From: Desulfatiglans anilini DSM 4660
Lineage (GTDB): Bacteria > Desulfobacterota > DSM-4660 > Desulfatiglandales > Desulfatiglandaceae
Length of the DNA stretch: 64,000 nucleotides
Assembly: GCF_000422285.1 (NCBI RefSeq)
Contig: NZ_KE383814.1
Coordinates: forward strand, 62,001-126,000
Reading direction: 5' to 3'
Below, one piece after another: positions 4,993 through 21,888 of the stretch (position 1 is the first letter of the stretch; every line of letters begins with the position of its first letter). Below the pieces are notes generated by a model. The model searched no databases. It had not been told where the DNA came from and worked only from the letters and a program-made list of their open reading frames with translations. The position numbers and the translations under genes are program-made.

Positions 4993-5302
4993 GTTTCCTT
5001 TGTTTCCTCCACATCCGGAACGCCGACGTGTACAACCGGGGAATGAGGTTTCCGGATATTTTGCACGCTTGCCCGATCCCTTTTCGGAGGCGCCCCTGTC
5101 GGTCGATGGGTTCAGGAGCCCACGCCTTTCTGCGAGTGAAGGTGAAGGCATGGGGCGAAGCAAGTGGGAGACAAAGCCCACCCGTCGGCCTGTGGTCCAA
5201 ACTTCGCAGGCTGCTGCTGGAAGAGCGCTTCCGAGCCGGCTCCAGTCTAACAGATGCGCCGCGTCAATTCAACGTCCGCGGAATTTCGGCGGCGGATTCC
5301 CC

Positions 5303-6166
5303 TCACCAGGGCCAAAGGGCGCTAAGCGCTTCAAGGGCTGGTTCGAGATCGTCTTCGCGGTGGGGTTCGAGGGTGATTACCGGAGGAGTCGGGAGCAGAC
5401 TGGACAACTGTTTGAAAAAGGCCTGAAAGTCAATGGTGCCGGCCCCGATCGCGAGATGCTGATCGGTTCGGCCGTCATTGTCATGAAGGTGAAGCTGCCT
5501 GATGAAAGGGGCCATGACGTCCACCCAGTTTTCGAGAGGGGCGCGCCCGAAAGCCGATTGGTGCCCGATATCGAGGCAGAATCCGATCTCGGGGTGATCG
5601 ATGGCTTCGAAGATGTGCTTCATGTTTTCAGGGGTCCACTCGTAGACGTTTTCGAGCACCAGACGGGTGGGCGATTCTTTCAGCCTGTCGGCCAGAGCCC
5701 TCCAGAAGGAGACGCTTCGCTTGAGCCAGCCCCACTTGAAAGGGCCGTAGCGCGTAACGTCGTAGTTTGCGTGCGCGACGAGGGTCTTCGGTTCGAACAC
5801 CGCTACCCACTCGAGGAGTTGTCTGAATCGGCGGCGGGTGACATCCCGGATCGCTTCGTCGGGCGACCCGGGCGACAGATCGGTAAACGGGGCGTGCAAG
5901 GTAATCGTGCGACCGGCCTCATGGAGCTTTCGTACCAGCGCTAGGCAGTCGCGCGGTTGAAAGCGGTCGAGCGCGGGGGCATCGAGGCCGATCTCCGGGT
6001 TGAGGCCCCGTTGGATGAAGCTTTCGCCGTACCCGTCGATAAAGAGACGGAACGGGAGATTGACCTGGACGATACGCCGCAAGTTTTCGACGGTGATTCT
6101 TTTTACGATCGCCTCACTGACGACGGGGGAGCCGGTTCGGGTTTCCTGGCAAGTGACGTTGATCAT
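5303..6166 (-). CDS. Sugar-phosphate isomerase/epimerase-like TIM-barrel protein
   Basis: This 287-aa protein fits the xylose-isomerase-like (AP endonuclease 2) TIM-barrel family. It has metal-ligand style segments: LHAPFTDLSPGS, a VAHANYD strand, LVLENVYEW, GFCLDIGHQSAFG, HLHDNDGRTDQHLAIGAGTIDF and a closing ITLEPH. Such proteins isomerise or epimerise sugars, or cleave C-C bonds, with a divalent metal. The start at 6166 (MINVTCQE) has GGAAAGG upstream; a longer frame reaching 6400 overlaps the HdrA gene and has no family similarity. It follows the HdrA gene by 77 bp. The substrate is unknown, and I see no direct link to the electron-transfer genes beyond position. Confidence 0.75.
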   Translation of the reverse strand: MINVTCQETRTGSPVVSEAIVKRITVENLRRIVQVNLPFRLFIDGYGESFIQRGLNPEIGLDAPALDRFQPRDCLALVRKLHEAGRTITLHAPFTDLSPGSPDEAIRDVTRRRFRQLLEWVAVFEPKTLVAHANYDVTRYGPFKWGWLKRSVSFWRALADRLKESPTRLVLENVYEWTPENMKHIFEAIDHPEIGFCLDIGHQSAFGRAPLENWVDVMAPFIRQLHLHDNDGRTDQHLAIGAGTIDFQAFFKQLSSLLPTPPVITLEPHREDDLEPALEALSALWPW

Positions 6167-6243
6167 GTCGTTGTTGTACCTTTCCGTATAAAACTTACAG
6201 CATCCAGGGCTGGAATCAGCATTGGAAACACGAACGGAGCCGG

Positions 6244-8709
6244 TCATTGCACCGGCAACGGCCCCGACGGCCCCTTGCCCCGTGGTTTGCTCAGGGCCTC
6301 GATGGTCGCAAAGATCTCTTCGGCCGTGACGGTCCGCCGCAGGGATTCCATACGCCGCATCACCTCTGCGAACCGGGTCCCTTCGGCGGCGCTGATCCAC
6401 TCGAGTTGAAGCCTTTCGGGCCGGATACCAAGGCGGGCCATCTTTTTCTGGACCTTCTCGATGCGTTTCAGGGTCCAGTTATTAGCATCAATATAATGAC
6501 AATCTCCGATATGGCAACCGCTGACGAGGATCACCGGGGCGCCGGCTCGAAACCCCCGCCAGATGAAATCCTCATCCACGCGGCCTGAACACATGGTGCG
6601 GATCAGTCTGACGTTCGATGGATACTGGAGCCGCGATACCCCGGCGTAATCCGCTCCGGCATAGGAGCACCAGTTGCAGGCGAAGACCAGGACCTTGCCG
6701 GAGGGCTCGGCTTCAAGCAGCGTGTCGATCTGGGCCGTGATCTGCCGGTCGCTGAAGTGGTTCATGTCGATCGCGTCGAAAGGGCATTCCGCCGCGCAGG
6801 TGCCGCACCCCGCGCAGGCCGCCGTGTTCACCACGGCCGGGGCCTTCTTCTTCGGGTCCACGGTAATGGCGTTGTAGGGGCAGACCTCGGCGCATCGGCC
6901 GCAGGCCTTGCACTGTTCGGCGAGGATGACCGAGGTGATGGGTTCGGTCGTGATCTCACCGCGGTGCAGGAGGCGGATCGCCCGGGCGGCCGCGGCAGAC
7001 GCCTGTGTGACGCTTTCCTTGATGTCCTTCGGCCCTTCGGCGCACCCCGCGTAAAAGACGCCGCGGGTGGCGGCATCCACCGGTTGAAGCTTCGGGTGGG
7101 CCTCCAGGAAGAAGCCGTCCGGCGTCAACTGAAGCCCGAGCATCTCCTGAAGCCGCTGGGTGCTGGAGGCGGGTTTTATCCCCAGGGCCAGGACCAGCAT
7201 GTCGAGTTCGTGGACCTCGAGCCTGCTCGTCGCGGTGTTCTCGACCGCCACCCGGAGGCTCCGGTCTTCGGTCTCCTCCACGGTCCCGGGGAGTCCGCGG
7301 ATGTATTGCACGCCCAGTCGCCGGCTGCGGCGGTAGAGATCTTCGAACCCCTTGCCGAATGCGCGGATATCGATATAGAAGACCTTGACCTCCACCTCGG
7401 GGTTGTGCTCCTTGATGAGGAGGGTGCTCTTGATCGTGTTCATACAGCAGATGTTGGAGCAGTACTCGGCCCCTTTGTTGAGGGAGCGCGAGCCGACGCA
7501 CTGGATGAAGCCGATCGTCTTCGGGTGACGCCGGTCCGTAGGGCGGATCAGTTCGCCTCTGCTCGGCCCGCCGGCATTGACCAGCCGCTCGAATTCAAGG
7601 CTCGTCAGGACGTTTTCGAAGCGCGTGTAGCCGTATTCGTCCATTTCGGTCGGGTCATAGACCTCGAGTCCGGTGGCCACCACGATAGCCCCGACGCGCT
7701 CCACCCGCTCCTCATCCGACATGCGGAAATCGATGCAGTGCTTGGCGCAGGCCTCCACGCACTTGGAGCACACGGCCGGATTGTGCCCCAGGCACTCGTT
7801 GACATTGATCATATAGGCGGATGGGACGGCCTGTGGAAAAGGCGAGAAGATGGCCTTGCGGGAGGAGAGGCCGAGGTTGAACTCATCCGGGCGGACCACG
7901 GGGCAGACCTTCGCGCAGTCCCCGCAGGCGGTGCACTCCTTCTCGTTGACGTAGCGGGCCTTTTTCAGAATCTTGACGTCGAAGTTTCCGACGGAGCCTT
8001 TGACCTCGACGACTTCACTGAGGGTGTGGAGGGTGATCCGGGGATGTCGACCGACATCCGTCATCTTCGGACCGAGGATTCAGATCGAACAATCCATCGT
8101 TGGAAAGGTCTTGTCGAGCTGCGCCATGGTCCCGCCGATAGAGCCCCGCTTCTCCACCAGCACCACGTCGAAGTCATTGTCGGCCAGGTCGAGGGCCGTC
8201 TGGATGCCGGCGACGCCGCCGCCGATCACGAGCGCGCGCCGGGTCAGCGGCAGCGTTTCGCCCGTCAGCGGCTCGAGTTCGCGCACACGCGAGACAGCCA
8301 TCCTGACGAGGTCCATTGCCTTGGCCGTGGCCGCCGGCCGGTCTCCCATGTGCACCCAGCTGCACTGCTCGCGGAGATTCGCCATCTCGAGCAGATAAGG
8401 GTTGATCCCGATCGACTGGAGCATCTGCCGAAAGGTCGGCTCGTGAAGCCTGGGAGAACAGGATGCCACCACCAGCCGGTCGAGTCCGTTTTCGAGGATG
8501 TCGGTTTTGATCTGCTGCTGTCCGGGCTCCGAGCAGGCGTATGCGATGTCCTTGGCGAGGACCACGCCGTCCCATGCCGCCGCTTCCTCGGCCACTTGGC
8601 CGCAGTCGACCGTCTGGGCGATGTTGAGGCCGCAGTGGCAGACATAAACGCCGATGCGCGGTTTGGCTCCGGGCGTTTCCTTCGTTCGTGCTTCCAGAGT
8701 GTTTTCCAT
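6244..8709 (-). CDS. hdrA: HdrA-MvhD fusion with in-frame TGA read as selenocysteine
   Basis: One frame of about 821 residues is interrupted only by a TGA at 8080-8082. The upstream part (1-209) is HdrA N-terminal: VYVCHCG (Cys24, Cys26), CSPRLHEPTF, then the FAD fold VIGGGVAGIQ. It runs to DCSI, the TGA, then ILGPKM; HdrA proteins have Cys at that point, and some methanogen and deltaproteobacterial HdrA have Sec. The frame continues with several [4Fe-4S] motifs: CTACGDCAKVC (about 259-269), CSKCVEACAKHC, CKACGRCAEVC and CAGCGTCAAEC. A C-terminal MvhD-like [2Fe-2S] domain follows (CNWCSYAG, CSGRV, GCHIGDCHY). HdrA is the bifurcating flavin subunit of heterodisulfide reductases; the MvhD domain docks an electron partner. 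It is not treated as a pseudogene, because nothing else in it is damaged. Confidence 0.9.
8035..8082 (-). promoter_or_regulatory. Selenocysteine UGA codon with SECIS-like hairpin
   Basis: The UGA is at 8082-8080 on the minus strand. Beginning 6 nt after it, GGTCCG (8073-8068) can pair with CGGATC (8040-8035, one G-U). Inside that, GATGTC (8058-8053) pairs perfectly with GACATC (8048-8043), closing the four-base loop GGTC. The loop starts with G and lies 27 nt after the UGA, within the spacing known for bacterial SECIS elements, which lie in the coding region just after the Sec codon and bind SelB. The match was found by eye and not scored. Confidence 0.7.
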
Positions 8710-8792
8710 ATTCCGGGCAGTCCTTGTGTTGTTTCAGCGTCTGCTGCGTGGATGTTTCACGGGCTTCGGGGCCGGGATTACGCGATTGCTCT

Positions 8793-10421
8793 TCACTCCC
8801 ACTGGATCGTCCGTGCCAGGAGCGTTGTCAGATCCACGGTTTCCATCTCGAGGGACTCCCCTATGAAGGGATCCTGCATGGCGCAGCGGAGATGGATCTG
8901 GCACTTGGGGCAGGCCGTCACCAGCAGGTCGGCGCCGGTGGCCCGGGCCTGCCTCAGGCGGTGGACCTGAAGGGCCTTGCTGAAGGCGTCGCAGCCGGTC
9001 CAGGCGGTGTTGCCGCAGCAGATGGCCCCTCCGCCGCGCTCCTGCATCTCTCCGAAGCCGGCCGAGTCCAGACGTCCGAGCAGCTTGCGAGGCAGGGCGC
9101 TCTTCTTCTCGAAGCGGCTCAGACGGCAGGGATCCTGAAAGGTCAGGCTCCGGTTGAGCCGCTTGAACCCCACCGCTCCCTTGTCGATCTCGCGCTCCAG
9201 GAAGTCCATCAGCAGGGTGACTTTGAAGGGGGTTTCCACGCCGTTGGCGGGGTAGTCATGGGAGAAGGTCCGGTACCCTTCGGGACAGCATACAATGACT
9301 TCTTCAACCCCGGAGGCGCGGATGGCCTCGACATTCAGGCGGGCAAGCTTCAGAAAGTTTTCCTGATCTCCGCTCCAGTACAGGTCGTGCCCGCAGCATC
9401 GCTCCGCATCCAGGAGCGCGGGGTGGATGTCGAAGAAGTTCAGGAGCCGGAGGCTGTCCACGAGGATGTCACGGGTCGTGACCCCGAGGTGGGTGCGGAA
9501 AAAGATGTCGAAGTAGGGCGCGCATCCCCCGAAAAACAGGACCTTGCTTTGCGGATCGGTCTGGATGTCGTCCGGAAGCCAGCTCCAGTGATGGATCCGG
9601 AGATCCGGGCTGGTCATCGTGCGGCTCAGGGATTGAAAGAAGCCCCCGTGGGCCTCGTGTCCCCCGAGCCCGTGTGCGAGGAGGATCCGGCGAACCTCCC
9701 GGACGAACCCCGGAAAGTTCACGGCCGAAGGGCAGCGGTCCGAGCACAGTCCGCAGGTCAGGCAGGACCAGATGTCGCGGCGGACACCCTCATCGTCCCA
9801 TTGGCCTGCAATCAGGGCGTTGGCGGTGGAGCGCGGTGAAAAGGTCTTCCCGGCCAGGGTCAGGGGGCAGGCCGAGGAGCACTTGCCGCAGTCCTGGCAG
9901 GCGTAGACGTCGTATTCCCGAAGAACCTGGTTGAGGGCGGGGGTCGGATCGCCCTGCACCGCCGGAAGGGGATAGGGCGCCACCGGGCTCTTGTCGAGGG
10001 ACTGGATATCGTCTGAAAACTGCCGGAGGAACTGAAGCAAGCCGGCGGAATCGTCGGGCAGAAAGAGCCCCAGGCGGAGCCGGGTGGCCCCGAGGCCGAG
10101 GAGATCCAGGATCTCGCAGGTGTCACGGACGTTGGCCCGTGCGGCCTTCGTCCCGCTCCCGTAGCGGCATGTCCCTTCGTGGCACCCGATGAGCGCGACC
10201 CCGTCGGCGCCCATCTCGAAGGGTTTGAACAGAAGCGCCTTGGTAATCCGCCCCGTGCAGGGGATCCGGACCATCTTGACCGCTTCGGGAATCGGGGCGC
10301 ATTCATCCTGAAGACGCTGGAAAGCGGCGTGCGGCCCCCAACTGCAGAGGAAAAGGATGATGCTGCGCGCTGGACCCGGCACGGGTGTGGCGCGCGATTC
10401 TATCTGGGGTTTTCCGTTCAT
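8793..10421 (-). CDS. MvhD-HdrC-HdrB fusion: iron-sulfur and CCG-domain heterodisulfide reductase-like protein
   Basis: The 542-aa protein joins three units. Residues 20-130 resemble MvhD/FrhD (FLCSWG, IPCTGR, GCHEGTCRYGSG), though the CxxC of MvhD reads CSWG here. Residues 175-230 hold two [4Fe-4S] motifs, CQDCGKCSSACP and CLTCGLCSDRCP, as in HdrC. The remainder has two CCG domains (CCGHDLYWSGD with CCPEGYRTF; DPCRLSRF, ICCGNTAW and CPKCQIH), as in HdrB/HdrD, which in methanogens carry the non-cubane clusters that reduce disulfides. It starts 40 bp after the GltD-HdrA gene and ends 83 bp before the Sec-HdrA gene. It is probably the catalytic, acceptor-reducing subunit of a cytoplasmic complex; the acceptor is unknown. 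Confidence 0.88.
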   Translation of the reverse strand: MNGKPQIESRATPVPGPARSIILFLCSWGPHAAFQRLQDECAPIPEAVKMVRIPCTGRITKALLFKPFEMGADGVALIGCHEGTCRYGSGTKAARANVRDTCEILDLLGLGATRLRLGLFLPDDSAGLLQFLRQFSDDIQSLDKSPVAPYPLPAVQGDPTPALNQVLREYDVYACQDCGKCSSACPLTLAGKTFSPRSTANALIAGQWDDEGVRRDIWSCLTCGLCSDRCPSAVNFPGFVREVRRILLAHGLGGHEAHGGFFQSLSRTMTSPDLRIHHWSWLPDDIQTDPQSKVLFFGGCAPYFDIFFRTHLGVTTRDILVDSLRLLNFFDIHPALLDAERCCGHDLYWSGDQENFLKLARLNVEAIRASGVEEVIVCCPEGYRTFSHDYPANGVETPFKVTLLMDFLEREIDKGAVGFKRLNRSLTFQDPCRLSRFEKKSALPRKLLGRLDSAGFGEMQERGGGAICCGNTAWTGCDAFSKALQVHRLRQARATGADLLVTACPKCQIHLRCAMQDPFIGESLEMETVDLTTLLARTIQWE

Positions 10422-10461
10422 CGAAGCTCGCTTTCCCGGCCCTCGGCGGTCGTCGGCCGCC

Positions 10462-13400
10462 TTAGACCGAGGTGGTTTTTTCCTGTGTCAAGACCTCTTC
10501 CAACAACTGGACGAGATAGCCGTGGTCCCGGTACGGGCTGTCGGCGGCCTGGGACGGGCAGACGGAGATGCACAGGCCGCACCCCTTGCACAGGGCCTCA
10601 TCGACGACAGCGTGCCGGCCTCCGACCAGGTTCGCCTCAAAATGGATGGCCTGGTGCGGGCACACATCGAGGCAGCGCCCGCAGCCGCGGCAGTAATCCT
10701 TGTGGACCATGACGGTGTATCCGCGGCTGGCCCGGGGGCCGCGGGGCATGACGGCGGCGGCGAGCACCGCGGCCGCCGCCCCTTTTTTCCGTTCCGAGAC
10801 GCGGATATCCGGCGGATTGGCCAGGAAGAGGCCTGAAACGGAGGTTGCGCCGGGGTAGAGAAACGGGAGATCCGCGCCGGCTTCGCTCTGCATGGAGGAC
10901 TGGACCATGCGATGGGGGAGCCCTTTCTGAGGGACATAAGGGATCATGCGCCGCGACTTTTCCCCCAGGATGACGGCCCCGACCTGAAGCGTCTTCTCGA
11001 ACCCGTCGGTGGCGACAAAAAGCTGGAAGTTCCCGAGGCTGCCGGTCAGTCCGATCACGCGGGAGCCCTTGAACCAGTGGATGTTCGGGTGGATGGCCCG
11101 ATCCGAGAGCGGGCTCTCCATGCTCCCGAACATGAAGACCTCCAAACCCGAATCGGCGAGGATCCTGGCGCTCTGAAAGGCCGCCTCCGATTCGCCAACG
11201 ACAGCGGTCGCAAAGTTGTAATGCCTGGCGGGCGCCGGGAGGCCCTTCAGACGCGCCGCGCGGTGGATGGAGCGGTCGAGAAGGCCCTGAAAGCGCTCGA
11301 AGGCGGTCTCGCGGTCGTTCTGCTTCAGAAACCGCAGGGCCTCGCCGCGCAGGTTGCAGGTCTCGACCATCGAGCGGCTGATGCCGGTCCCATCGAAAAG
11401 GGCCTGCTTGAGGCGGGTGCGCTGATCGGTGCACGCGCTGCAGACGAAGTTGAGCGGGCAGCAGACGCAGGAGGCGAGCACGACCCGGGTGATCCCCTTT
11501 TCGCGGATGGTGTGGAGGATCTCCGCGCCCCCCTCCGGCACGCAGGCCGAGTCGATCACCGTGCTGAAGACGACGTTCTCCCGCTCGCGGAGTTCGAGGA
11601 CGAACCGGTCCATTTCGGGAAGCCATCCGAGGCTCCCGTTGCAGCGGCATACGAAGACCCCGATGCGGACGTCGCGTGCGAGCTCCGGGTCCGGAGGCGA
11701 GAAGCTCAAACCCCGCCCCCGGAGCGAGCGGGCCGAGCTGCTCAGCAGGATGACGGCCTGGGCCGCGGCATCGAAGCCCCGGGTCATCATGTCGAAGACG
11801 TTCGGGCGCGCCGACTTCGGGCCATAGGCCCGGATGACGTCCAGGCCCTTGACCTCCGGGACCATGTCGGGGTCGGCCAGGATCACCGCGCCGGCCTGTT
11901 CGACCACGTCCTCGGCCCTTTGGCCGTGCCGGATCGCGTCGATTCCACGGCAGGCCTCCACGCACAGGAGGCATTCCGAGCAAAGGCCGCACTGAAGACA
12001 GCGGCCGGCCTCAGCGGCGGCCTGCTCGGCGCTCAGGCCCAGCGCCACCTCATCGAAGCTCTTGCTGCGAGCGGCCGGCTGCCTCTCCGGCATGGTGGGC
12101 CGGGCAAGCGAGGGGATCTCGGGCGGGATCGGCCGGTAGTCCAGGTCTTCCGGCCGAGCGGTCCGATGCGGCGCGGGGTCTTCGCCTTTCAGATCGACAT
12201 GCAGCGTCCTGGCGGCCGTCTTGCCGGCGGCCATGGCCAGGACGACCGATCCGGGGCTCGCAACGGCATCCCCCGCAGCGTACACAAGGGGGATCGATGT
12301 GCGGCCTGACGGGTCCGCCGCGATCAGACCGGCGGAGGTCGTTTCTAGGATGGGGACGCCGGGGCCCTGTTCGCCGGCCGGCGAGTGCTCCGGGAAGCCC
12401 CCATTCTGCCCGATCGCGATAAAGGCCCGATCGAAGGGCAGGAGAACGGGCTCGGTGTCCGGGACGATCACCGGCCACGGGATGCCCTGCGGGTCCGGTT
12501 TCCCTGGTTCGGTGGGACGGCACCGGAGCACGCGGAGCCTCCCGTCGCTGCCCTCGAACGCCGTCACCTGGAGGCAGTCGAGGATATGCACCCCTTCTTC
12601 TAAGGCCGCTTCGACCTCGCGCGAGTCGGCGGGGATGAGTTCTTTCGGGAACCAGGAGAGCAGCGTGACCTCGGCGCCCATCCGCCGGAGCACCCTGGCC
12701 AGATCGAAGGCCGCGTTGCCGTCGCCGACAACGGCTGCGCGATCCTTGAAGGCGGTGATCCCGGTCCGGTAAGCCCGCTGGAGGAAGGCAAGGCAGCCTT
12801 CGACCCCGTCGAGGTCCTCCCCCGGCACTCCGAGGCTCCGGTCGTTCCAGGAGCCTGCCGCGACGATGACCCCGTCGAAGGCGGACCGGAGTTCGGCGAG
12901 TCCGTCGTCGAACGCCACGGGTCGCTCGGTTTCGAAGACGACGCCCATCCGGCGGATGTAGTCCAGTTCATAATCGAGGATGGCGCGCGGCAGGCGATGG
13001 GGGCCGATGCCGTAGCGGAGCAGGCCTCCGGGTTCCGGTTCGCGCTCGAAAACGGTGACGTCGTAATCCAGGCGGGCTGCCTCTGCGGCGGCCGCCAGAG
13101 CGGCCGGTCCGGACCCGACTACGGCGACCCTCCCGCTGCTCCCGTCGCTCCGGTGCGGGGCGGGCATCGTGCCCGCAGCGATCTCATAGTCGGCGAGAAA
13201 ACGCTTGATGTCGCGGATGGCGATCGGTTCGTCCAATTCGCCGCGGCGGCAGGCCTCTTCGCAGGGGTGGGTGCACACCCGGCCGCAGATCCCCGGAAGC
13301 ACGTTTTCATCACGGACGACCTGCAGGGCCTCGGCATAGCGGCCCGCCGCCGCGAGGGCGATGTAGGCCTGGGCGTTGACGCCGAGAGGGCAATGGGTCT

Positions 13401-13863
13401 GGCAGCGCGGCGCCTGCCGCTTTTCGAGGAGGATGCGGCCCGGGAGCATGTTCCGCCCGGTAAAGCGGATCGGCCTCGCACCGTCGGGGGCGAGCACCGG
13501 ACAGACCTCGGCGCAGCGCCCGCAGAGGGTGCATCGCGCCGGGTCCGTGCAAGTGGCTTCGAGGCGCAGATGGGCCTTGAATCCCTGCGGGGTGTGTTTG
13601 AGGGAGACGACCTCGGCGGGGAGAAGGCACTGGATCGCCTGATTTCGGAGGATGCGGAGCAGGCCGGGCCGGTGCGCGAAGTTCAAAGGCACGCCGCAGG
13701 GCAGGCGCCATTGTTCGGAGGAAAGCTTCCCGTCCAGGTCCGCCTCCCGGTCCACCAGGGTGACCGGGATCCCCATTTCGGCCAGTTTGTTGGTCGCCAA
13801 GATGCCGGCAGGATTGGCCCCGATCACGATGACTTTGTAAAGACGCTCTTTATTCCTGGTCAT
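10462..13863 (-). CDS. GltD-HdrA fusion: NAD(P)H/FAD/iron-sulfur oxidoreductase
   Basis: At 1133 aa this is far longer than either GltD (about 450-500 aa) or HdrA. It opens with a Rossmann motif (VIGANPAGILATNK), then CTLCGRCAEVC. A GltD-type module follows: CQTHCPLGVNAQAY, CGRVCTHPCEEACRRG, the FAD fold VVGSGPAALAAAAEAA and the NAD(P)H fold VVGDGNAAFDLARVL. After CLQCGLCSECLLCVEAC comes a diverged HdrA-like part (RIGVFVCRCNGSLG, SCVCCPLNFVC). It ends with two [4Fe-4S] motifs (CRGCGRCLDVCP, CKGCGLCISVCP). It begins 7 bp after korC. I infer it passes electrons between NAD(P)H and the Kor/Hdr iron-sulfur chain, perhaps as a second flavin site for bifurcation. Confidence 0.85.
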   Translation of the reverse strand: MTRNKERLYKVIVIGANPAGILATNKLAEMGIPVTLVDREADLDGKLSSEQWRLPCGVPLNFAHRPGLLRILRNQAIQCLLPAEVVSLKHTPQGFKAHLRLEATCTDPARCTLCGRCAEVCPVLAPDGARPIRFTGRNMLPGRILLEKRQAPRCQTHCPLGVNAQAYIALAAAGRYAEALQVVRDENVLPGICGRVCTHPCEEACRRGELDEPIAIRDIKRFLADYEIAAGTMPAPHRSDGSSGRVAVVGSGPAALAAAAEAARLDYDVTVFEREPEPGGLLRYGIGPHRLPRAILDYELDYIRRMGVVFETERPVAFDDGLAELRSAFDGVIVAAGSWNDRSLGVPGEDLDGVEGCLAFLQRAYRTGITAFKDRAAVVGDGNAAFDLARVLRRMGAEVTLLSWFPKELIPADSREVEAALEEGVHILDCLQVTAFEGSDGRLRVLRCRPTEPGKPDPQGIPWPVIVPDTEPVLLPFDRAFIAIGQNGGFPEHSPAGEQGPGVPILETTSAGLIAADPSGRTSIPLVYAAGDAVASPGSVVLAMAAGKTAARTLHVDLKGEDPAPHRTARPEDLDYRPIPPEIPSLARPTMPERQPAARSKSFDEVALGLSAEQAAAEAGRCLQCGLCSECLLCVEACRGIDAIRHGQRAEDVVEQAGAVILADPDMVPEVKGLDVIRAYGPKSARPNVFDMMTRGFDAAAQAVILLSSSARSLRGRGLSFSPPDPELARDVRIGVFVCRCNGSLGWLPEMDRFVLELRERENVVFSTVIDSACVPEGGAEILHTIREKGITRVVLASCVCCPLNFVCSACTDQRTRLKQALFDGTGISRSMVETCNLRGEALRFLKQNDRETAFERFQGLLDRSIHRAARLKGLPAPARHYNFATAVVGESEAAFQSARILADSGLEVFMFGSMESPLSDRAIHPNIHWFKGSRVIGLTGSLGNFQLFVATDGFEKTLQVGAVILGEKSRRMIPYVPQKGLPHRMVQSSMQSEAGADLPFLYPGATSVSGLFLANPPDIRVSERKKGAAAAVLAAAVMPRGPRASRGYTVMVHKDYCRGCGRCLDVCPHQAIHFEANLVGGRHAVVDEALCKGCGLCISVCPSQAADSPYRDHGYLVQLLEEVLTQEKTTSV

Positions 13864-13870
13864 GATGCGA

Positions 13871-14467
13871 TCAGGCCCCTGTCCTTCCTTCGGCCTTCTT
13901 CTGACGCCCCTTCAACAAGGCGCGGCCGTAATCCCAGCCCTTGGAAAAGGCCTTGAGATTCATGGTTTCCGTTCCTTTGGGCACCGAGGCGGCCACGGCT
14001 TCGGAGGCCGCCTCGAAGGAGACGGCTTCGGTGACGGCGGTGAAAAAACCGAGCATGATGATGTTGGCCATCATCTTGCGCCCGAGCTCTTCGGCCAGGC
14101 GGGTGGCCGGGATATCGAAGTGCACACGGTCGAGCCCGCGAGGCTGCACCAGATCGGAATCGAGGATCAGGATCCCCTCGGGCGTCAGCACATCGATATA
14201 CTTTTCGAAGCCGCCCTGGGACATGCAGACGAGGATGTCCGCCTGCCGGACATAAGGGTAGTGGATCGTACGCTCCGAGATGATGACCTGGGCGCTGCAG
14301 GCCCCGCCCCGGGCCTCGGGTCCGTAGGATTGCACCAGGGTGCTCTCCTTGTGGTCTCCGAGGGCGACGGCCTCGCCGAGGATCTTGCCCGCGAGGACGA
14401 TCCCCTGTCCGCCGAAGCCGGTGAAGATGATTTCCGTTTGGCCGCCTGGACCCTGGTCCTTTTTCAT
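13871..14467 (-). CDS. korC: 2-oxoacid:ferredoxin oxidoreductase, gamma subunit
   Basis: The 198-aa protein has the gamma-subunit signature FTGFGGQGIVLAGKILGEA at residues 15-33 and the later SYGPEARGGACSAQVIIS. The gamma subunit completes the heterotetrameric enzyme that converts a 2-oxoacid plus CoA to acyl-CoA, CO2 and reduced ferredoxin. It lies 72 bp after korB and 7 bp before the GltD-HdrA gene, which ties the oxidoreductase transcriptionally to the Hdr-like genes. Confidence 0.92.
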   Translation of the reverse strand: MKKDQGPGGQTEIIFTGFGGQGIVLAGKILGEAVALGDHKESTLVQSYGPEARGGACSAQVIISERTIHYPYVRQADILVCMSQGGFEKYIDVLTPEGILILDSDLVQPRGLDRVHFDIPATRLAEELGRKMMANIIMLGFFTAVTEAVSFEAASEAVAASVPKGTETMNLKAFSKGWDYGRALLKGRQKKAEGRTGA

Positions 14468-14539
14468 GTGAGGCCCCTGTACGTTTCGATGCGGTTCATG
14501 GGCGGATGGCTTTTTCGCCTGCCGGGTTGGCGGCGGCGT

Positions 14540-15400
14540 TCATGCCCCGGCCTCGGCCGAGGCGGTTTCGGCAAGGTCCTTCGGCCGGCAGATCTGATCG
14601 TAGTGGTTGCTGCACGTGGGGCGGTGAACATCGACGAACTTGCCGAGGATCACGCCCTTCTCGAAATCGACCTCCAGCTCCGTAGGAGGCGCCTCGTTCC
14701 GGACGATCGTCTTTTCCTGGTAGAGGCGCAGGGTTTCGAGCGGCTTTTCGCGGTTCCGCCGTCCGTAGTTGATGGGGCAGGGCGCCAGCACCTCGACGAA
14801 GGAAAACCCCGGACGGAGCAGGGCCTCCACGATGGATTCCGTCAGGTCCCTGGTGTGCAGGATGGTCCATCGCGCCACATAGGTCGCGCCGGAGGCGAAG
14901 GCCAGGAGCGGGAGGTTGAAGGGCGTCTCCGGGTTGCCGTACGGGGTGGTGGTGGTGCGCGCCTTGAGCGGGGTGGTTGCCGCCACCTGACCGCCGGTCA
15001 TGCCGTAGTTGAAATTGTTGACGCAAATGACGGTGAGATCCACGTTGCGCCGGGCCGCATGGATGAAGTGGTTGCCCCCGATCGCGAACAGATCGCCGTC
15101 CCCGCTGAAGACCACGACGTTCAGCTCTGGATTGGCCAGTTTCATCCCCGTCGCAAAGGGGATCGCGCGTCCATGCGTGGTGTGATAGGAGTCCAGGTTG
15201 ACGTAGCCCGCTCCGCGCCCGGAACACCCGATCCCGGAGACCATGACGGTCTTCTCGAGATCGATGCCGCTCGTCTTCATGGCGTAGAGGGAGGCTGAAA
15301 AGACGGTGCCGATGCCGCACCCCGGACACCAGATGTGCGGGATGCGGTCGGTGCGGATGAGGTCCTCGAGCGGGTGGGGCGGAGGGGCGGCTTTTTTCAT
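14540..15400 (-). CDS. korB: 2-oxoacid:ferredoxin oxidoreductase, beta (TPP) subunit
   Basis: This 286-aa protein carries the thiamine-diphosphate motif: GDGDLFAIGGNHFIHA followed by NNFNYGMTGGQ. It also has the cluster-binding cysteines WCPGCG near the N-terminus, GCSGRG, and a late CPINYGRRN. The beta subunit holds TPP and a [4Fe-4S] cluster where the 2-oxoacid is decarboxylated. Its ATG overlaps the korA stop by 4 bp (15397-15400), a sign of translational coupling. Sequence style favours 2-oxoglutarate over pyruvate as substrate, but this is not certain. Confidence 0.93.
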   Translation of the reverse strand: MKKAAPPPHPLEDLIRTDRIPHIWCPGCGIGTVFSASLYAMKTSGIDLEKTVMVSGIGCSGRGAGYVNLDSYHTTHGRAIPFATGMKLANPELNVVVFSGDGDLFAIGGNHFIHAARRNVDLTVICVNNFNYGMTGGQVAATTPLKARTTTTPYGNPETPFNLPLLAFASGATYVARWTILHTRDLTESIVEALLRPGFSFVEVLAPCPINYGRRNREKPLETLRLYQEKTIVRNEAPPTELEVDFEKGVILGKFVDVHRPTCSNHYDQICRPKDLAETASAEAGA

Positions 15401-16560
15401 GGTCGTTCATTCCCTTTGGCGATGGACTGCATGGCTTCGATGACGTGCTCCGGCGGGATGATGGCGCCTCCGGGGTGGCCCACGAGCAGGGCCGGCGCCT
15501 TGCCGGCCGCACAGCGTTCAACCTCGAGGTGGATCTGGCCGAGGTTGATTTCCACGGTCACGAAGGCCTTGACACGCTCTGCGAGCTGCCGGATGCGGCG
15601 CTCCGGGAACGGCCAGACGGTGATAAGCCTGAAGAGGCCGGCCTTGATACCCGACCGGCGGGCCTCGTCCACGGCGGCGTAGGCCGTGCGCGCCGAAACC
15701 CCGTAGGAGACGACGACGATCTCGGCGTCGTCCAGTCGGTACCCGTCGGTCAGGATGATCTCCTCCTCGTGCCCGCGGATCTTCCCGACGAGCCGCTCCA
15801 TCATCTCGGTCTGGGCTTCGACGGTCATGGTCGGGTAGCCGCGCTCGTCGTGCGTCAGGCCGGTCACGTGGATGCGATAGCCCTCGCCCGCTGCGGCCAT
15901 GGGGGCGATGCCGTCCGAGCCCGCCCTGAAGGGCTTGAAACGATCTTTGCGCCCCTTCGGCGCAAGGCGGCTGACGAGGCGGATATCCTTCGGCTCGGGG
16001 ATGACGACGCGCTCGCTCAGGTGCCCCACGAATTCGTCGGTCATGACGAGGACCGGGATGCGGTATCGCTCGGCCAGGTTGAAGGCGGTGATGGTCTGGT
16101 AGAAGATCTCCTGCGGCGAAGAGGGGGCGAGGGCGATGATCTCGTAGTGCCCGTGGGACCCCCAGCGCGCCTGCATCATATCGGCTTGAGCGCCCAGGGT
16201 CGGAAGCCCTGTCGAGGGGCCAGCGCGCTGGACGTTGACGACGACGCAGGGGGTCTCGGTGCAGACCGCAAGGCCGATGTTTTCCATCATCAGGCTGAAG
16301 CCCGGTCCGGAGGTGGCGGTCATGCTCTTGACACCGGCGCAGCTCGCCCCCACGACGGAGGCCATGGCGGCGATCTCGTCCTCCATCTGGATGAAGGTGC
16401 CCCCGACCTCCGGGAGCCGTTCCGACATATGTTCGGCGATCTCGGTCGCCGGTGTGATCGGATACCCACCGAAGAAGAGGCAGCCCGCGGCCAGGGCGCC
16501 TTCGGCGCAGGCCACGTCCCCGGTCATAAAGTGCTCACCTGTTAGAACGGCTGTTTTCAT
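15397..16560 (-). CDS. korA: 2-oxoacid:ferredoxin oxidoreductase, alpha subunit
   Basis: The 387-aa alpha subunit begins MKTAVLTGEHFMTGDVACAEGA and shows the pyrimidine-binding region FFGGYPITPATEIAEHM, then QMEDEIAAMASVVGASCAG and SGPGFSLMMENIG. Its length and order fit the KorA/OorA type, which lacks an N-terminal gamma domain because gamma is a separate gene here. It catalyses, with KorB, CoA-dependent oxidation of 2-oxoglutarate or a close relative in the cytoplasm. The gene lies 60 bp after korD and overlaps korB by 4 bp. Confidence 0.93.
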   Translation of the reverse strand: MKTAVLTGEHFMTGDVACAEGALAAGCLFFGGYPITPATEIAEHMSERLPEVGGTFIQMEDEIAAMASVVGASCAGVKSMTATSGPGFSLMMENIGLAVCTETPCVVVNVQRAGPSTGLPTLGAQADMMQARWGSHGHYEIIALAPSSPQEIFYQTITAFNLAERYRIPVLVMTDEFVGHLSERVVIPEPKDIRLVSRLAPKGRKDRFKPFRAGSDGIAPMAAAGEGYRIHVTGLTHDERGYPTMTVEAQTEMMERLVGKIRGHEEEIILTDGYRLDDAEIVVVSYGVSARTAYAAVDEARRSGIKAGLFRLITVWPFPERRIRQLAERVKAFVTVEINLGQIHLEVERCAAGKAPALLVGHPGGAIIPPEHVIEAMQSIAKGNERP

Positions 16561-16620
16561 GAGGTCGGTTCCCTATTATTTTTCCCCGGACCTTCCTCCG
16601 GAATCGAGGTGAAGACGTTT

Positions 16621-16881
16621 TCAGGACGGGGCTTCCACTGAGTAGATGGCGAATTCGGGGCAGATGATCTCGCAAAAATGGCAATTGACGCACTGCTCCC
16701 TGTCGGAAACGACAGGCGGGTGGTATCCTTTCTTGTTGAAGCTCCTGGAGAATTCGAGGATTCCTTTTGGGCAGAACTCGATGCAGTAGCCGCAGCCTTT
16801 GCATCGGTCTTCGAGGATGTAAACGATGCCGCGCGTCACTTGGATATCGCCGGCATCGAGAGGGGCCCGCCAAAAAGCCAT
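16621..16881 (-). CDS. korD: 2-oxoacid:ferredoxin oxidoreductase, delta (ferredoxin) subunit
   Basis: An 86-aa bacterial-type ferredoxin with two [4Fe-4S] motifs, CKGCGYCIEFCP and CVNCHFCEIICP, separated by about 27 residues. As the delta subunit it takes electrons from the TPP subunit to external ferredoxin. It is the first gene of the operon: its ATG has CAGGGAA 7 nt upstream and lies about 50 nt after a consensus sigma-70 promoter on the minus strand. Confidence 0.92.
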   Translation of the reverse strand: MAFWRAPLDAGDIQVTRGIVYILEDRCKGCGYCIEFCPKGILEFSRSFNKKGYHPPVVSDREQCVNCHFCEIICPEFAIYSVEAPS

Positions 16882-16935
16882 GGGATTTCCCTGATGAAAG
16901 TGTTCCGGGGATGGATGCGGAAATCAATGGGAGCC

Positions 16936-16963
16936 ATTATAGGCTGATGCCTTGCCATGTCAA
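16936..16963 (-). promoter_or_regulatory. Consensus sigma-70 promoter for kor-hdr operon
   Basis: On the minus strand TTGACA (16963-16958) and TATAAT (16941-16936) are separated by 16 bp, both perfect consensus hexamers. Transcription would start near 16929, leaving a leader of about 48 nt before the korD ATG at 16881. Confidence 0.8.
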
Positions 16964-16995
16964 GGTAATTGGATGCCCCGTTTTCACTTGACGTA

Positions 16996-17026
16996 GGACA
17001 CCCCCGCCATTTTGAAGGGGGTGTCC
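16996..17026. promoter_or_regulatory. Perfect 10-bp inverted repeat between the kor and purA promoters
   Basis: GGACACCCCC (16996-17005) and GGGGGTGTCC (17017-17026) are exact reverse complements with an 11-nt spacer. There is no T-run beside it, so it is not a standard terminator. It lies 33 bp upstream of the kor -35 box and about 113 bp upstream of the putative purA -35 box. It may be an operator for a dimeric regulator or an RNA hairpin. Confidence 0.5.
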
Positions 17027-17138
17027 CGGTGTTGTGCTGTGGAGGCCTTTCCAGTCCCCTGCCGCAAGTGAGGCTCAAAGGAAAATGTCCACCCGGTTCG
17101 GAGGCTTCAGCGGCTGTTGGGGCGCTGGACCAAAATGG

Positions 17139-17167
17139 TTGACATGCCGGTAGGTTTCCGCTAGGTT
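17139..17167 (+). promoter_or_regulatory. Putative purA promoter
   Basis: TTGACA (17139-17144), a 17-bp spacer and TAGGTT (17162-17167) point toward purA, 170 bp upstream of its ATG. The -35 box is perfect and the -10 box is weak. Nothing else recognisable lies between it and purA. Confidence 0.45.
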
Positions 17168-17319
17168 CCCCCGTGGATTGCACCGCCGCCTCTGCATCGG
17201 ATGGGATGGAGGTCCGGCGGCGCCCCGGGGGGGTTGCCGATAGACCGTGCCCCGCGGCCTTGCAGGGTTTGCCGGATTAGGCTGCAAGACCGTTCCCGGG
17301 CCGTAATGATCTGCTGTGA

Positions 17320-18627
<1,308 letters not shown>

Positions 18628-18745: not shown

Positions 18746-20626
18746 ATGTTCCATTCCGATTCAGAACCCTACGACGTCATCGTGGTCGGGGCCGGGCATG
18801 CCGGGTGCGAGGCTGCTCTGGCTGCGGCCCGCATGGGCCACCGCGCCCTGCTGCTGACCATCAACCTGGACCACGTCGCCGCCATGAGCTGCAACCCGGC
18901 CATCGGCGGCCTGGCCAAGGGCCATCTGGTCAAGGAGATCGACGCCCTCGGCGGGGAGATGGCCCTGAACGCGGATGCCACCGGGATCCAGTTCCGGCGC
19001 CTCAACACACGCAAAGGGCTGGCGGTCCAAGGGTCGCGATCTCAGAACGACCGGGATCTCTACCGCAGGCGCATGAAGCAGGTGGTGGAAGGTCAGCGGA
19101 ACCTGGATGTCCGCCAGGCGATGGTCGACCGCCTGCTCATCAGGGCCGGGCGCGTGGAGGGCATCGAGACCCATCTCCGCGAAGAGATCCGCGGCCGGAC
19201 CGTGATCCTGACGACGGGGACCTTCCTCGGGGGGCTGATCCACATCGGCCTTAACCGCTTTCCGGCCGGCCGCCTGGGGGATCCGCCGTCGCTGAAGCTC
19301 TCGGAGCAGTTGGCTGAGCTCGGCCTCCAGGTCGACCGGCTCAAGACCGGAACGACGCCCCGCTTGAACGCCCGCAGCATTGACTACGAAGGCCTGACGC
19401 CGCAGCCGGGGGACCCGGTTCCGAAGCCCTTCTCGTTTCGCACACGCGGGATCACGCTGCCCCAGGTTCCCTGCCACATGACCTACACCACCTCCGAGAC
19501 CCATGCCGTCATCCGTTCGGGCCTGGACCGCTCGCCGCTCTTTTCGGGCGTCATCAAGGGCGTGGGGGCGCGCTACTGCCCCTCGATCGAGGACAAAGTC
19601 GTCCGGTTCGCAGAGAAGGAGCGCCACCAGATCTTCCTCGAGCCCGAGGGGCTCGACACGGTCGAGGTCTACCCGAACGGCCTCGCCACCAGCCTGCCGA
19701 TCGATATCCAGCTCCGCATGGTCCGTTCCATCCCCGGCCTCGAGCGGGCCGAAATCCTCCGGCCGGGCTATGCCATCGAATACGACTACATCGATCCGAT
19801 CCAGTTGAAGCCGAGCCTCGAAACCAAGCGCATCGCCGGCCTCTTCCACGCGGGGCAGATCAACGGCACGTCCGGCTACGAGGAGGCCGCGGCCCAGGGG
19901 CTGATGGCGGGGGTCAACGCCGTGCTGCAGGTACGGGGGGAGGAGCCTCTGATCCTGGGGCGCGACCAGGCCTACACCGGGGTGTTGATCGACGACCTGG
20001 TCACGAAGGGGACCCGGGAGCCCTACCGGATGTTCACATCGCGGGCGGAGTACCGGCTGCTGCTCCGCGAAGACAACGCCGACTTTCGCCTGACGGAGAT
20101 CGGACGGCGGCTTGGGCTCGTCTCCGACGACGTGTATGCCGCGTTCCGGCGCCGGCGCGAGCGGATCGAAGGAACCCTAGAGCGCTTGAAGCACGTGTTG
20201 CTGAAGCCGGAGCCCTCGACCCAAGATCGCCTGAGGGCGATCGGTTCCGCGCCGATCAAGAATCCGATCACCCTGGCGCAGTTGCTCAGGCGGAGCGAGG
20301 TCGTCTTCGAGGATCTGAAGGGCTTCGATGCGGAGCTCGACGGGATCGAGGAGCCGATCGCCGCCGAGGTCGAGACGCGCGTCAAGTATGAAGGCTATAT
20401 CGAACGGCAGGAGCAGCAGGTGGAAAGGCTTCGGAAGATGGAAAACACGCGCCTGCCGGAGGACCTGGATTACCGCGCCCTCCATGGCCTCACGACGGAG
20501 GTGCGCGAGAAGCTCAGCCGCGTCCGCCCCTCCTCGATGGGGCAGGCATCCCGGATTTCCGGCGTAACCCCCGCGGCCCTCATGGCCATCCAGGTCCATC
20601 TGAAACGGTCCGGCGCGGCCTGCTAG
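18746..20626 (+). CDS. mnmG: tRNA uridine 5-carboxymethylaminomethyl modification enzyme MnmG (GidA)
   Basis: This 626-aa protein has the FAD motif [21 protein letters not shown] at residues 11-31, the MnmG signature [19 protein letters not shown], the segment [11 protein letters not shown], and the C-terminal [32 protein letters not shown] and [11 protein letters not shown]. It works with MnmE to modify U34 of certain tRNAs. It follows purA by 118 bp on the same strand. Its stop overlaps the convergent icd stop by 4 bp. Confidence 0.97.
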
Positions 20627-21888
20627 CCCATACGGCTCTGGATCGCAGCACCGAAGGCCGAGCAGGAGACCTCCTTGGCGTTTTCCATCTGGCGCGCCAG
20701 GTCATAGGTCACGATGCCGTCCCCGATGGTGTCTCGAAGGCCCTTCAGGATGAGGTCGGCCGCCTCGTCCCAGCCCATGAAGCGCAGCATCTCGACCCCT
20801 GAAAGAATCAATGACCCGGGGTTGACCTTGTCCAGACCCGCGTATTTCGGGGCCGATCCGTGGGTCGCCTCGAACACGGCGCACCGGTCTCCGACGTTGG
20901 CGCCTGGGGCCATGCCGAGCCCTCCCACCTGCGCCGCCGCCGCGTCCGACAGGTAATCCCCGTTCAGGTTGGGCGTCGCCAGGACGCCGTATTCCTCCGG
21001 GCGCAGGAGCAGTTGCTGGAACATCGCGTCCGCGATCCGGTCCTTGATCACGATCCTGCCGGCCGGCGCCTTTCCGCCGAAATCCGCGAAAAGCTCCTCC
21101 TCGGTGAGGGTAAGGTCGCCGAACATCTCGCGCGCCGTCTGGTAACCCCAGTCACGGAAGGCCCCCTCCGTGTACTTCATGATGTTTCCCTTGTGCACCA
21201 GGGTGACGCTGTCATAGTGGTGATCCGCGGCGTACTGGATCGCCCGCGCCACGAGTCGCTGCGTGTTGCGGCGGCTCATGGGCTTGATGCCGACGGCGCT
21301 GTCGATCGGCAGGAGGGGTTTGCCTTCGAATGAAAGTCTGGCATTGATCTGCTCGAGGATCTCGCGGGCGGCCGGCGATTCCGCCTCCCATTCGACCCCG
21401 GCGTAGACATCCTCCGTATTCTCGCGGAAGATCACCAGATCGACCTTTTCAGGGTGCCTGACAGGGGCCGGGATCCCCGGCACGTAGCGAACGGGCCGGA
21501 TGCAGGCATACAGGTCGAGCCTCTGGCGGAGGGTGACGTTCAGAGAGCGGAAGCCGCCCCCGACCGGGGTTGTGAGGGGGCCCTTGATGGCAATGCCGTA
21601 CCGCGTCAGAGCCTCGAGGGTCTCTTCGGGCAGGAGGCACTCGCAGCCCAGAGCGTCCTGCGCCTTCGCGCCCGCCAGGAGCTCCAGCCAGAGGATTGCC
21701 TTCTTGCCGCCGTAGGTCTTCCGGACCGCTGCGTCGATGACCGGGCGCGCCGCGCGCCAGATGTCGGGGCCGGTGCCGTCTCCTTCGATGAAGGGGATGA
21801 TGGGGGTGTCAGGAACGATGGGGCGGCCATGGGAATCCCACGTGATGGTATTCCCCGTTGTTGGGGTTTCAAGTCGATCCGATGGCAT
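20623..21888 (-). CDS. icd: Isocitrate dehydrogenase, NADP-type
   Basis: The 421-aa protein has the homodimeric bacterial IDH length and motifs: [13 protein letters not shown] near the N-terminus, the substrate loop [39 protein letters not shown], and the metal-binding region [19 protein letters not shown]. It oxidises isocitrate to 2-oxoglutarate and CO2, probably with NADP+. The product is the likely substrate of KorABCD encoded about 4 kb away, so both steps of the oxidative or reductive C5 branch are in this window. It is convergent with mnmG. Confidence 0.95.

Follow-up and report, generated by a model that had tools for sequence, protein, structure and literature searches.

The analyzed stretch of DNA (hereafter the window) comprises 64,000 nucleotides (nt) of contig NZ_KE383814.1 of Desulfatiglans anilini DSM 4660, and the present work concerns a module of seven genes on its minus strand, from 16881 to 6244. 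Protein families were assigned with Pfam and NCBIfam. The genes korD, korA, korB, and korC encode a 2-oxoacid:acceptor oxidoreductase (Kor) and are followed by genes for three large proteins, GltD-HdrA (P0002), MvhD-HdrC-HdrB (P0003), and Sec-HdrA-MvhD (P0001), in which Sec stands for a putative selenocysteine (Table 1). In gene order, the gaps from korD to P0001 are 60, -4, 72, 7, 40, and 83 nt. All seven frames lie where an initial annotation of this sequence had placed them, and the gaps of 7, 40, and 83 nt that it quoted were exact. In the following, L and G numbers denote loci and genomes, respectively.

Table 1. Features of the seven-gene module and its upstream region in the window.
Feature	Position	Strand	Description
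Sigma-70-like promoter TTGACA-16-TATAAT	16936..16963	-	12/12 consensus match only; 54 nt before korD
korD	16621..16881	-	86 aa; two [4Fe-4S] motifs; delta subunit, 2-oxoacid:acceptor oxidoreductase
korA	15397..16560	-	387 aa; alpha subunit
korB	14540..15400	-	286 aa; thiamine diphosphate-binding beta subunit
korC	13871..14467	-	198 aa; gamma subunit
GltD-HdrA (P0002)	10462..13863	-	1133 aa
MvhD-HdrC-HdrB fusion (P0003)	8793..10421	-	542 aa
Sec-HdrA-MvhD (P0001)	6244..8709	-	821 aa; canonical HdrA flavin domain and fused MvhD
In-frame TGA, putative Sec codon	8080..8082	-	residue 210 of P0001; aligns with Cys197 of 5ODC HdrA
Selenocysteine insertion sequence-like hairpin GGATGTC-GGTC-GACATCC	8042..8059	-	starts 23 nt after first TGA base

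The seven genes form a sharply bounded, conserved unit. Scanning contigs with P0002 gave 61 loci, among which 18 close orthologues (L019-L036) each had korC directly upstream, and two Dehalococcoidia loci at 29-30% identity, L046 and L038 (the latter cut at both contig ends), carried the module. When a profile of the C-terminal part of P0002 was run against 395 genomes of the phylum, 28 genomes matched at E <= 2e-177 and 13 at 2e-94 to 3e-73, with the next match at 1e-50. A GltD-HdrA orthologue is therefore carried by 41 of the 395 genomes (40 fetched loci and the window), which overlap with the genomes of the contig scan, so the counts are not independent. Among the carriers, L029 is labelled as an isolate, Desulfobulbus alkaliphilus DSM 24258, and all nine genomes drawn from the window's family contain the module. 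P0003 and P0001 each follow in 40 of the 41 carriers; the exception is L145, where the contig ends first, and the contig of L146 stops within P0001. Upstream, korC, korB, and korA are present in 37 carriers and korD in 35, again with contig ends behind every miss. The linkage in related genomes on which the initial annotation had staked its proposal is thus borne out, the order being kept in the 41 carriers wherever the contig allows. Since 41 of 395 genomes carry the orthologue and show this same order, the conservation is far beyond chance. In Chloroflexota, 3 of 201 sampled genomes carry the module, each with all seven genes, and L038 represents a fourth carrier, holding what its contig includes. 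The korC stop lies -4 to +2 nt from the P0002 start in 20/20 loci with this layout and 7 nt from it in the window. Only 26 of 81 flanking pieces resembled another flank, none of them more than three others, and a larger conserved operon was ruled out because the flanks are hardly shared.

All four Kor subunits (alpha, beta, gamma, and delta) reach the Pfam cut-offs of the 2-oxoacid:acceptor family, and KorA exceeds the curated NCBIfam cut-off of NF006412, the 2-oxoacid:acceptor oxidoreductase alpha subunit (578 vs. 411 bits). KorA scored 395.5 bits on the 2-oxoglutarate synthase alpha model (cut-off 579). The best NCBIfam matches of KorB (238 bits, cut-off 364) and KorD (OGOR_delta, 69.6 bits, cut-off 125) were 2-oxoglutarate models, and KorC gave 199 bits on a generic gamma model (cut-off 235). 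Because KorB, KorC, and KorD stay under their cut-offs, 2-oxoglutarate is the likely rather than the proven substrate. Compared with solved alpha chains, KorA matched 1yd7 (390 bits), the 2-oxoglutarate synthase alpha chain 8ys5 (278), 6n2n (212), 5b46 (154), and the pyruvate enzyme 9bt4 (71), and the NCBIfam phenylglyoxylate dehydrogenase models matched the Kor subunits far below their cut-offs. The same wiring could serve a Kor acting on another 2-oxoacid (branched-chain, aromatic, or pyruvate); this would agree with the generic alpha model alone passing its cut-off and with the presence of a second korDABC on contig C28 of the same genome (KorA 47% identical). However, the leading matches of KorB and KorD are to 2-oxoglutarate models and 8ys5 is ahead of 9bt4, and we regard another substrate as unlikely.

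GltD-HdrA begins with a degenerate HdrA Rossmann region and a ferredoxin motif, followed by a GltD-type domain for flavin adenine dinucleotide (FAD) and NAD(P)H (~151-560) and a Cys-rich linker. Then come an HdrA N-terminal domain with eight invariant cysteines (the CxC...C...CxCC...C..C set), a second degenerate Rossmann region, and a C-terminal 2[4Fe-4S] part. The GltD-type domain is above the Pfam cut-off, and its best structural matches are StnA, NfnA, Nfn, and GltD chains (Z 26.9-33.5, 386-407 residues), the best nine rows having Z 31.5-33.5 over 386-407 residues at a root-mean-square deviation (rmsd) of 2.8-3.5. On TIGR01316, the GltD equivalog, P0002 scored 283 bits against a cut-off of 471.75, indicating a GltD-like fold only. 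The NAD(P) motif GxGxxA occurs in 28/28 aligned GltD-HdrA sequences, and 31 cysteines are invariant among them.

The HdrA parts of P0002 are incomplete. At E <= 0.001, P0002 matched only residues 158-276, 17-184, and 541-665 of the P0001 HdrA; residues 277-540 had no match in P0002 at this threshold, and by eye a short piece at ~317-345 remains. P0002 consequently has neither the cluster on the flavin side nor the lysine and glutamate within 374-427. The canonical GxGxxG was present in 0/28 aligned sequences at the first HdrA Rossmann motif and in 4/28 at the second, and P0002 falls short of a complete HdrA FAD domain. The initial annotation had counted two HdrA-like flavin centers, but only that of P0001 is canonical, and a second HdrA flavin in P0002 was ruled out by the missing 277-540 match and the degenerate motifs. 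Because these flavin motifs are degenerate while the GltD motifs and the 31 cysteines are kept, P0002 is read as a putative adaptor with many Fe-S clusters. The flavins of known type in the three Hdr proteins would then number two, a GltD flavin and an HdrA flavin.

The canonical HdrA is P0001, which passes the NF040770 HdrA2 cut-off (1200 vs. 1100 bits). Its residues 16-664 match 5ODC HdrA, and an MvhD is fused at the C-terminus. Up to residue 409 of 5ODC HdrA, 20/22 cysteines are kept in P0001, one of them as Sec, the exceptions being C83 and C326. Residues C386, C399, C403, C404, K409, and E356 of 5ODC HdrA correspond to C404, C417, C421, C422, K427, and E374 of P0001, all of which are kept; the four cysteines (as flavin-side cluster), the lysine, and the glutamate presumably lie by the FAD. 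This residue-by-residue comparison covered the P0001 of the window.

The in-frame TGA of P0001 recurs in 39/39 readable orthologues of the 41 phylum carriers (the contigs of L145 and L146 end before it), and in Chloroflexota the position is TGA in L046 and L170 and Cys in L038 and L169. The stem of the downstream hairpin is mostly kept in orthologues, with paired changes (GATGTC/GACATC, GATGCC/GGCATC), and a few loci (e.g., L021, L141, and L143) break one pair or fold differently. A tRNA-Sec match in the genome scored 71.7 bits (gathering score 47), although this family also weakly matches other tRNAs. Given the constant TGA, the Cys in two Chloroflexota homologues, and the conserved hairpin, the TGA at residue 210 is best read as selenocysteine, and a sequencing error or broken gene was ruled out by the same TGA conservation and hairpin. 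Many more giant HdrA-type frames (~900-1500 aa), several with an in-frame TGA, were seen on contigs C2, C6, C17, C30, and C74 of the same genome.

The predicted structure of P0003 is good (predicted local distance difference test, pLDDT, 83). It matched MvhD over 136 residues (Z 21.7, rmsd 2.1), EtfD over 373 (Z 23.5, rmsd 3.6), and HdrB over 232 (Z 19.7, rmsd 2.6), and its HdrC-HdrB part was closest to EtfD and TfrB. The HdrB domain has two CCG stretches, the second of which is complete. In the MvhD domain, the CNWC motif reads CxWG in all 12 rows with the domain, and the cysteines of CSGR and GC.GDCHY are kept. Of the two MvhD-like domains proposed initially, that of P0003 is thus without one conserved Cys.

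By domain and motif content, the parts of the module fit 2-oxoacid oxidation, NAD(P)H, an HdrA bifurcation flavin, and an HdrB-type acceptor site, as had been proposed. The most likely reading, to which we give about an even chance, is that the seven genes encode one soluble Kor-HdrABC-NAD(P)H confurcating or bifurcating complex; from the observed gene content, conservation, TGA/Sec codon, domains, and motifs we infer its assembly, electron route, substrate, HdrB acceptor, and direction. In this complex, Kor would exchange two electrons of very low potential in the interconversion of a 2-oxoacid (most likely 2-oxoglutarate) and coenzyme A (CoA) with succinyl-CoA and CO2, and KorD would connect them to the Fe-S chain of GltD-HdrA and/or to the ferredoxin domains of Sec-HdrA. 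Bifurcation or confurcation would take place at the FAD of Sec-HdrA, the low-potential branch of which would face Kor and perhaps also ferredoxin. The high-potential branch would lead through HdrC and the HdrB center to a disulfide-like acceptor, and a two-electron branch of middle potential would lead through MvhD and the GltD flavin to NAD(P)H. GltD-HdrA may have arisen from a type III-like HdrA through loss of the bifurcating flavin, and may now serve as NAD(P)H port and Fe-S hub. The overall reaction would be near-reversible. The potentials of 2-oxoglutarate/succinyl-CoA (~-0.5 V), NAD(P)H (~-0.32 V), and disulfides (~-0.2 V) allow either direction. A more specific proposal, which we put forward tentatively and regard as somewhat unlikely, is a ferredoxin-independent 2-oxoglutarate synthase/dehydrogenase in which Kor is docked on the low-potential branch of the Sec-HdrA flavin with a flavin-dead type III HdrA as adaptor, and in which NAD(P)H oxidation and reduction of the HdrB acceptor drive succinyl-CoA carboxylation, or the reverse. 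If true, HdrA complexes would have a further, new class, represented in at least two phyla.

A GltD-type flavin domain directly after korC, with the genes touching, could also indicate a plain 2-oxoacid:NAD(P)+ oxidoreductase, in which electrons would pass from Kor through Fe-S clusters and the GltD flavin to NAD(P)+ and the Hdr proteins would act as scaffolds or taps without bifurcation. There are precedents in the 2-oxoglutarate:NADP+ oxidoreductase of Azoarcus evansii and the NAD-dependent phenylglyoxylate dehydrogenase PadEFGHI, 2-oxoacid oxidoreductases wired to NAD(P)+ by a flavoprotein. However, homologues of HdrA-MvhD and of the HdrB-type protein occur in 40/41 carriers, and the HdrA flavin site of the window's P0001 is complete. 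Related layouts also bear on this point. In 37 control genomes without P0002, hand-picked from the profile survey and hence non-random, a module-type KorA (58-71% identity) was found in five, and the other controls had <=52% (carriers G002, G234, and G118 were left out of this comparison). Three of the five, G102, G001, and G047 (L173-L175), have korDABC followed by HdrA-MvhD, HdrC, and HdrB but no GltD; their HdrA-MvhD is 58-60% identical to P0001, with Cys in place of Sec. This layout suggests that Kor is more constantly paired with HdrA-MvhD, HdrC, and HdrB, the connection to NAD(P)H being an addition. Taking these points together, we regard an oxidoreductase without bifurcation as distinctly unlikely.

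2-Oxoacid oxidoreductases are normally taken to use soluble ferredoxin. Kor and an Hdr-GltD enzyme might be separate, co-expressed from one operon and sharing a common pool of soluble ferredoxin. In favor of this, the KorD subunit resembles a 2[4Fe-4S] ferredoxin, the genome has its second Kor, and the remaining two of the five controls, G184 and G231 (L171 and L172), carry korDABC of the same clade, with no Hdr gene found in the 16.5 and 7.2 kb read around it, respectively. Their KorA nests inside the module clade, with low support at the node, which may point to a secondary loss; both genomes belong to the same taxonomic order. The KorA of the GltD and GltD-less layouts and of these two stand-alone loci cluster apart from the second Kor of D. 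anilini with a support of 0.97, or 0.83 with L040 (Ca. Aerophobetes), where 323 nt separate korDABC from a downstream gene for a GltD-HdrA-HdrA protein of ~1480 aa. Strict order in two phyla at ~30% GltD-HdrA identity is nevertheless stronger than a shared pool predicts, and the sharp boundaries and the stop/start contact between korC and GltD-HdrA point the same way, so we judge mere co-expression rather unlikely.

Several observations weigh against a single Kor-HdrABC-NAD(P)H complex. As G184 and G231 have module-type korDABC without neighboring Hdr genes, Kor is probably not strictly dependent on the Hdr assembly and may work without it. The predicted structure of P0002 is weak (pLDDT 64; predicted template modelling score 0.48) and does not give the domain placement; the model was used for the GltD domain only. 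Its 50 structural-match rows contain no HdrA chain and only the HdrA-like subunit 6tjr; this absence carries no weight because matches to the GltD domain occupy the rows. Of 28 GltD-HdrA sequences, 27 have a canonical GltD FAD motif, the exception being the window itself (GSGPAA, with Ala at the last position). The Nfn-type YRRT motif with its Arg pair is kept in some relatives and reads SWF or TWF in the window's clade, which leaves the predicted NAD(P)H pocket ambiguous and the motifs undecided between NAD and NADP. In P0003, the first CCG motif is without its last Cys in 2/13 rows (the window and L019) and complete in 11/13. Finally, G313 (L121), which belongs to the window's genus, has a 125-nt tandem repeat (L121:14451-14739; 2.3 copies) at the ferredoxin/MvhD junction of its Sec-HdrA-MvhD gene. 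The repeat disturbs the reading frame and may be either natural variation or an assembly artefact.

The acceptor and direction of the proposed complex belong to the same weighing. DsrC is the best-known acceptor in sulfate reducers. It was found over the cut-off in 36/41 carriers, 0/2 Chloroflexota carriers tested, and 26/37 controls, and its absence from 5/41 carriers (two of them incomplete bins) and from both Chloroflexota rules out DsrC as an obligate HdrB partner. A Wood-Ljungdahl marker was present in 35/41 carriers, 2/2 Chloroflexota, and 28/37 controls (in both counts the controls were again hand-picked); this linkage was dropped as a guide to direction because carriers and controls show no clear contrast. 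We lean slightly toward a reaction in which NAD(P)H drives the net formation of 2-oxoglutarate, since most carriers have the marker, and this lean is weak since the controls have it nearly as often.

The initial annotation placed all seven genes behind one promoter. A perfect consensus indeed lies 5' of korD, but the claim is pattern matching only: in 5000-17400 on both strands, four promoter-like sites were found against 1.6 expected, and nine terminator-like sites against 9.1. Upstream of korD, in the opposite orientation, a purA-like gene was recognized by eye (17323-18627), and an upstream purA is common to four loci, including the same-genus L121. At a distance of 3.7 kb, likewise upstream of korD, there is a gene (20623-21888, minus strand) that resembles isocitrate dehydrogenase by eye, without a family search; if this assignment is correct, an oxidative route to 2-oxoglutarate is also present. 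At the other end, an AP_endonuc_2 (TIM barrel) frame (5303-6400, minus strand) adjoins the module and, with a provisional start, overlaps the 3' end of Sec-HdrA; besides the window, this neighbor was seen in L121 only.

If the seven proteins form one complex, the module would show a way for some Chloroflexota and for relatives of sulfate reducers to keep a 2-oxoacid step near equilibrium, including its reversal to fix carbon or make amino acids. It would also suggest a function that can be tested for one of the numerous HdrA clusters without assigned function in these organisms. The arrangement had been noted as not recognized as described, and in agreement with this no description of a Kor-Hdr gene cluster was found in the passages of the open literature that were consulted, with the main bacterial Hdr reviews outside the search; priority is not claimed. 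Many HdrA clusters are reported in syntrophic sulfate reducers with Kor not named (PMC10553843), an hdrA-mvhD-pyridine nucleotide oxidoreductase cluster is reported in Desulfococcus multivorans (PMC5109826), and KorAB is cited as an electron donor to benzoyl-CoA reductase in Thauera (PMC9973337).

A close known relative of P0002 is type III HdrA, in which, according to PMC12054007, GltD is inserted beside an inserted ferredoxin domain in nine archaeal sequences (methane-metabolising archaea). A GltD inserted in HdrA is thus already known from archaea (PMC12054007). The insertion was proposed as an NADH port of HdrA that blocks ferredoxin access, and the terms oxoglutarate and Kor are absent from the main text of that source (PMC12054007). 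Similarly, the GltD of P0002 follows HdrA 158-276, next to an inserted ferredoxin domain. In the larger relatives (L037, L039, L041-L045, and L047), HdrA resumes after GltD from ~314. In contrast to type III HdrA, the window's P0002 lost the HdrA flavin core and adjoins a second, complete Sec-HdrA. Large HdrA-GltD-HdrA-HdrA proteins, with no kor match in the loci read, were observed at L037, L039, L042-L045, and L047, in bins of Deltaproteobacteria, Desulfarculaceae/Desulfarculus, Firmicutes, and Sedimentisphaerales, and they appear to be a bacterial counterpart of archaeal type III HdrA.

The module resembles HdrABC-MvhAGD (5ODC), MetVF-HdrABC-MvhD, FlxABCD-HdrABC, and Fdh-HdrABC in its HdrA bifurcation site and its MvhD-, HdrC-, and HdrB-type parts, and differs from them in that its metabolic part is Kor and GltD instead of hydrogenase, MetVF, Flx, or formate dehydrogenase. 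The bifurcating StnABC/NfnABC transhydrogenases (8oh5, 9bov, and 9n5u/9n5v) rank level with Nfn among the top structural matches to the GltD domain, and the RCLQC motif of P0002 follows the GltD domain as in StnABC/NfnABC chains; however, their NuoF-like partner is absent from the module, and the rest of P0002 is HdrA-like. The A. evansii enzyme and PadEFGHI have no Hdr part and hence no bifurcation site, unlike the module. Finally, the korDABC-hdrA/mvhD-hdrC-hdrB clusters of L173-L175 have, like the module, a Kor of the same clade, but they are without GltD and have canonical, separate HdrC and HdrB.

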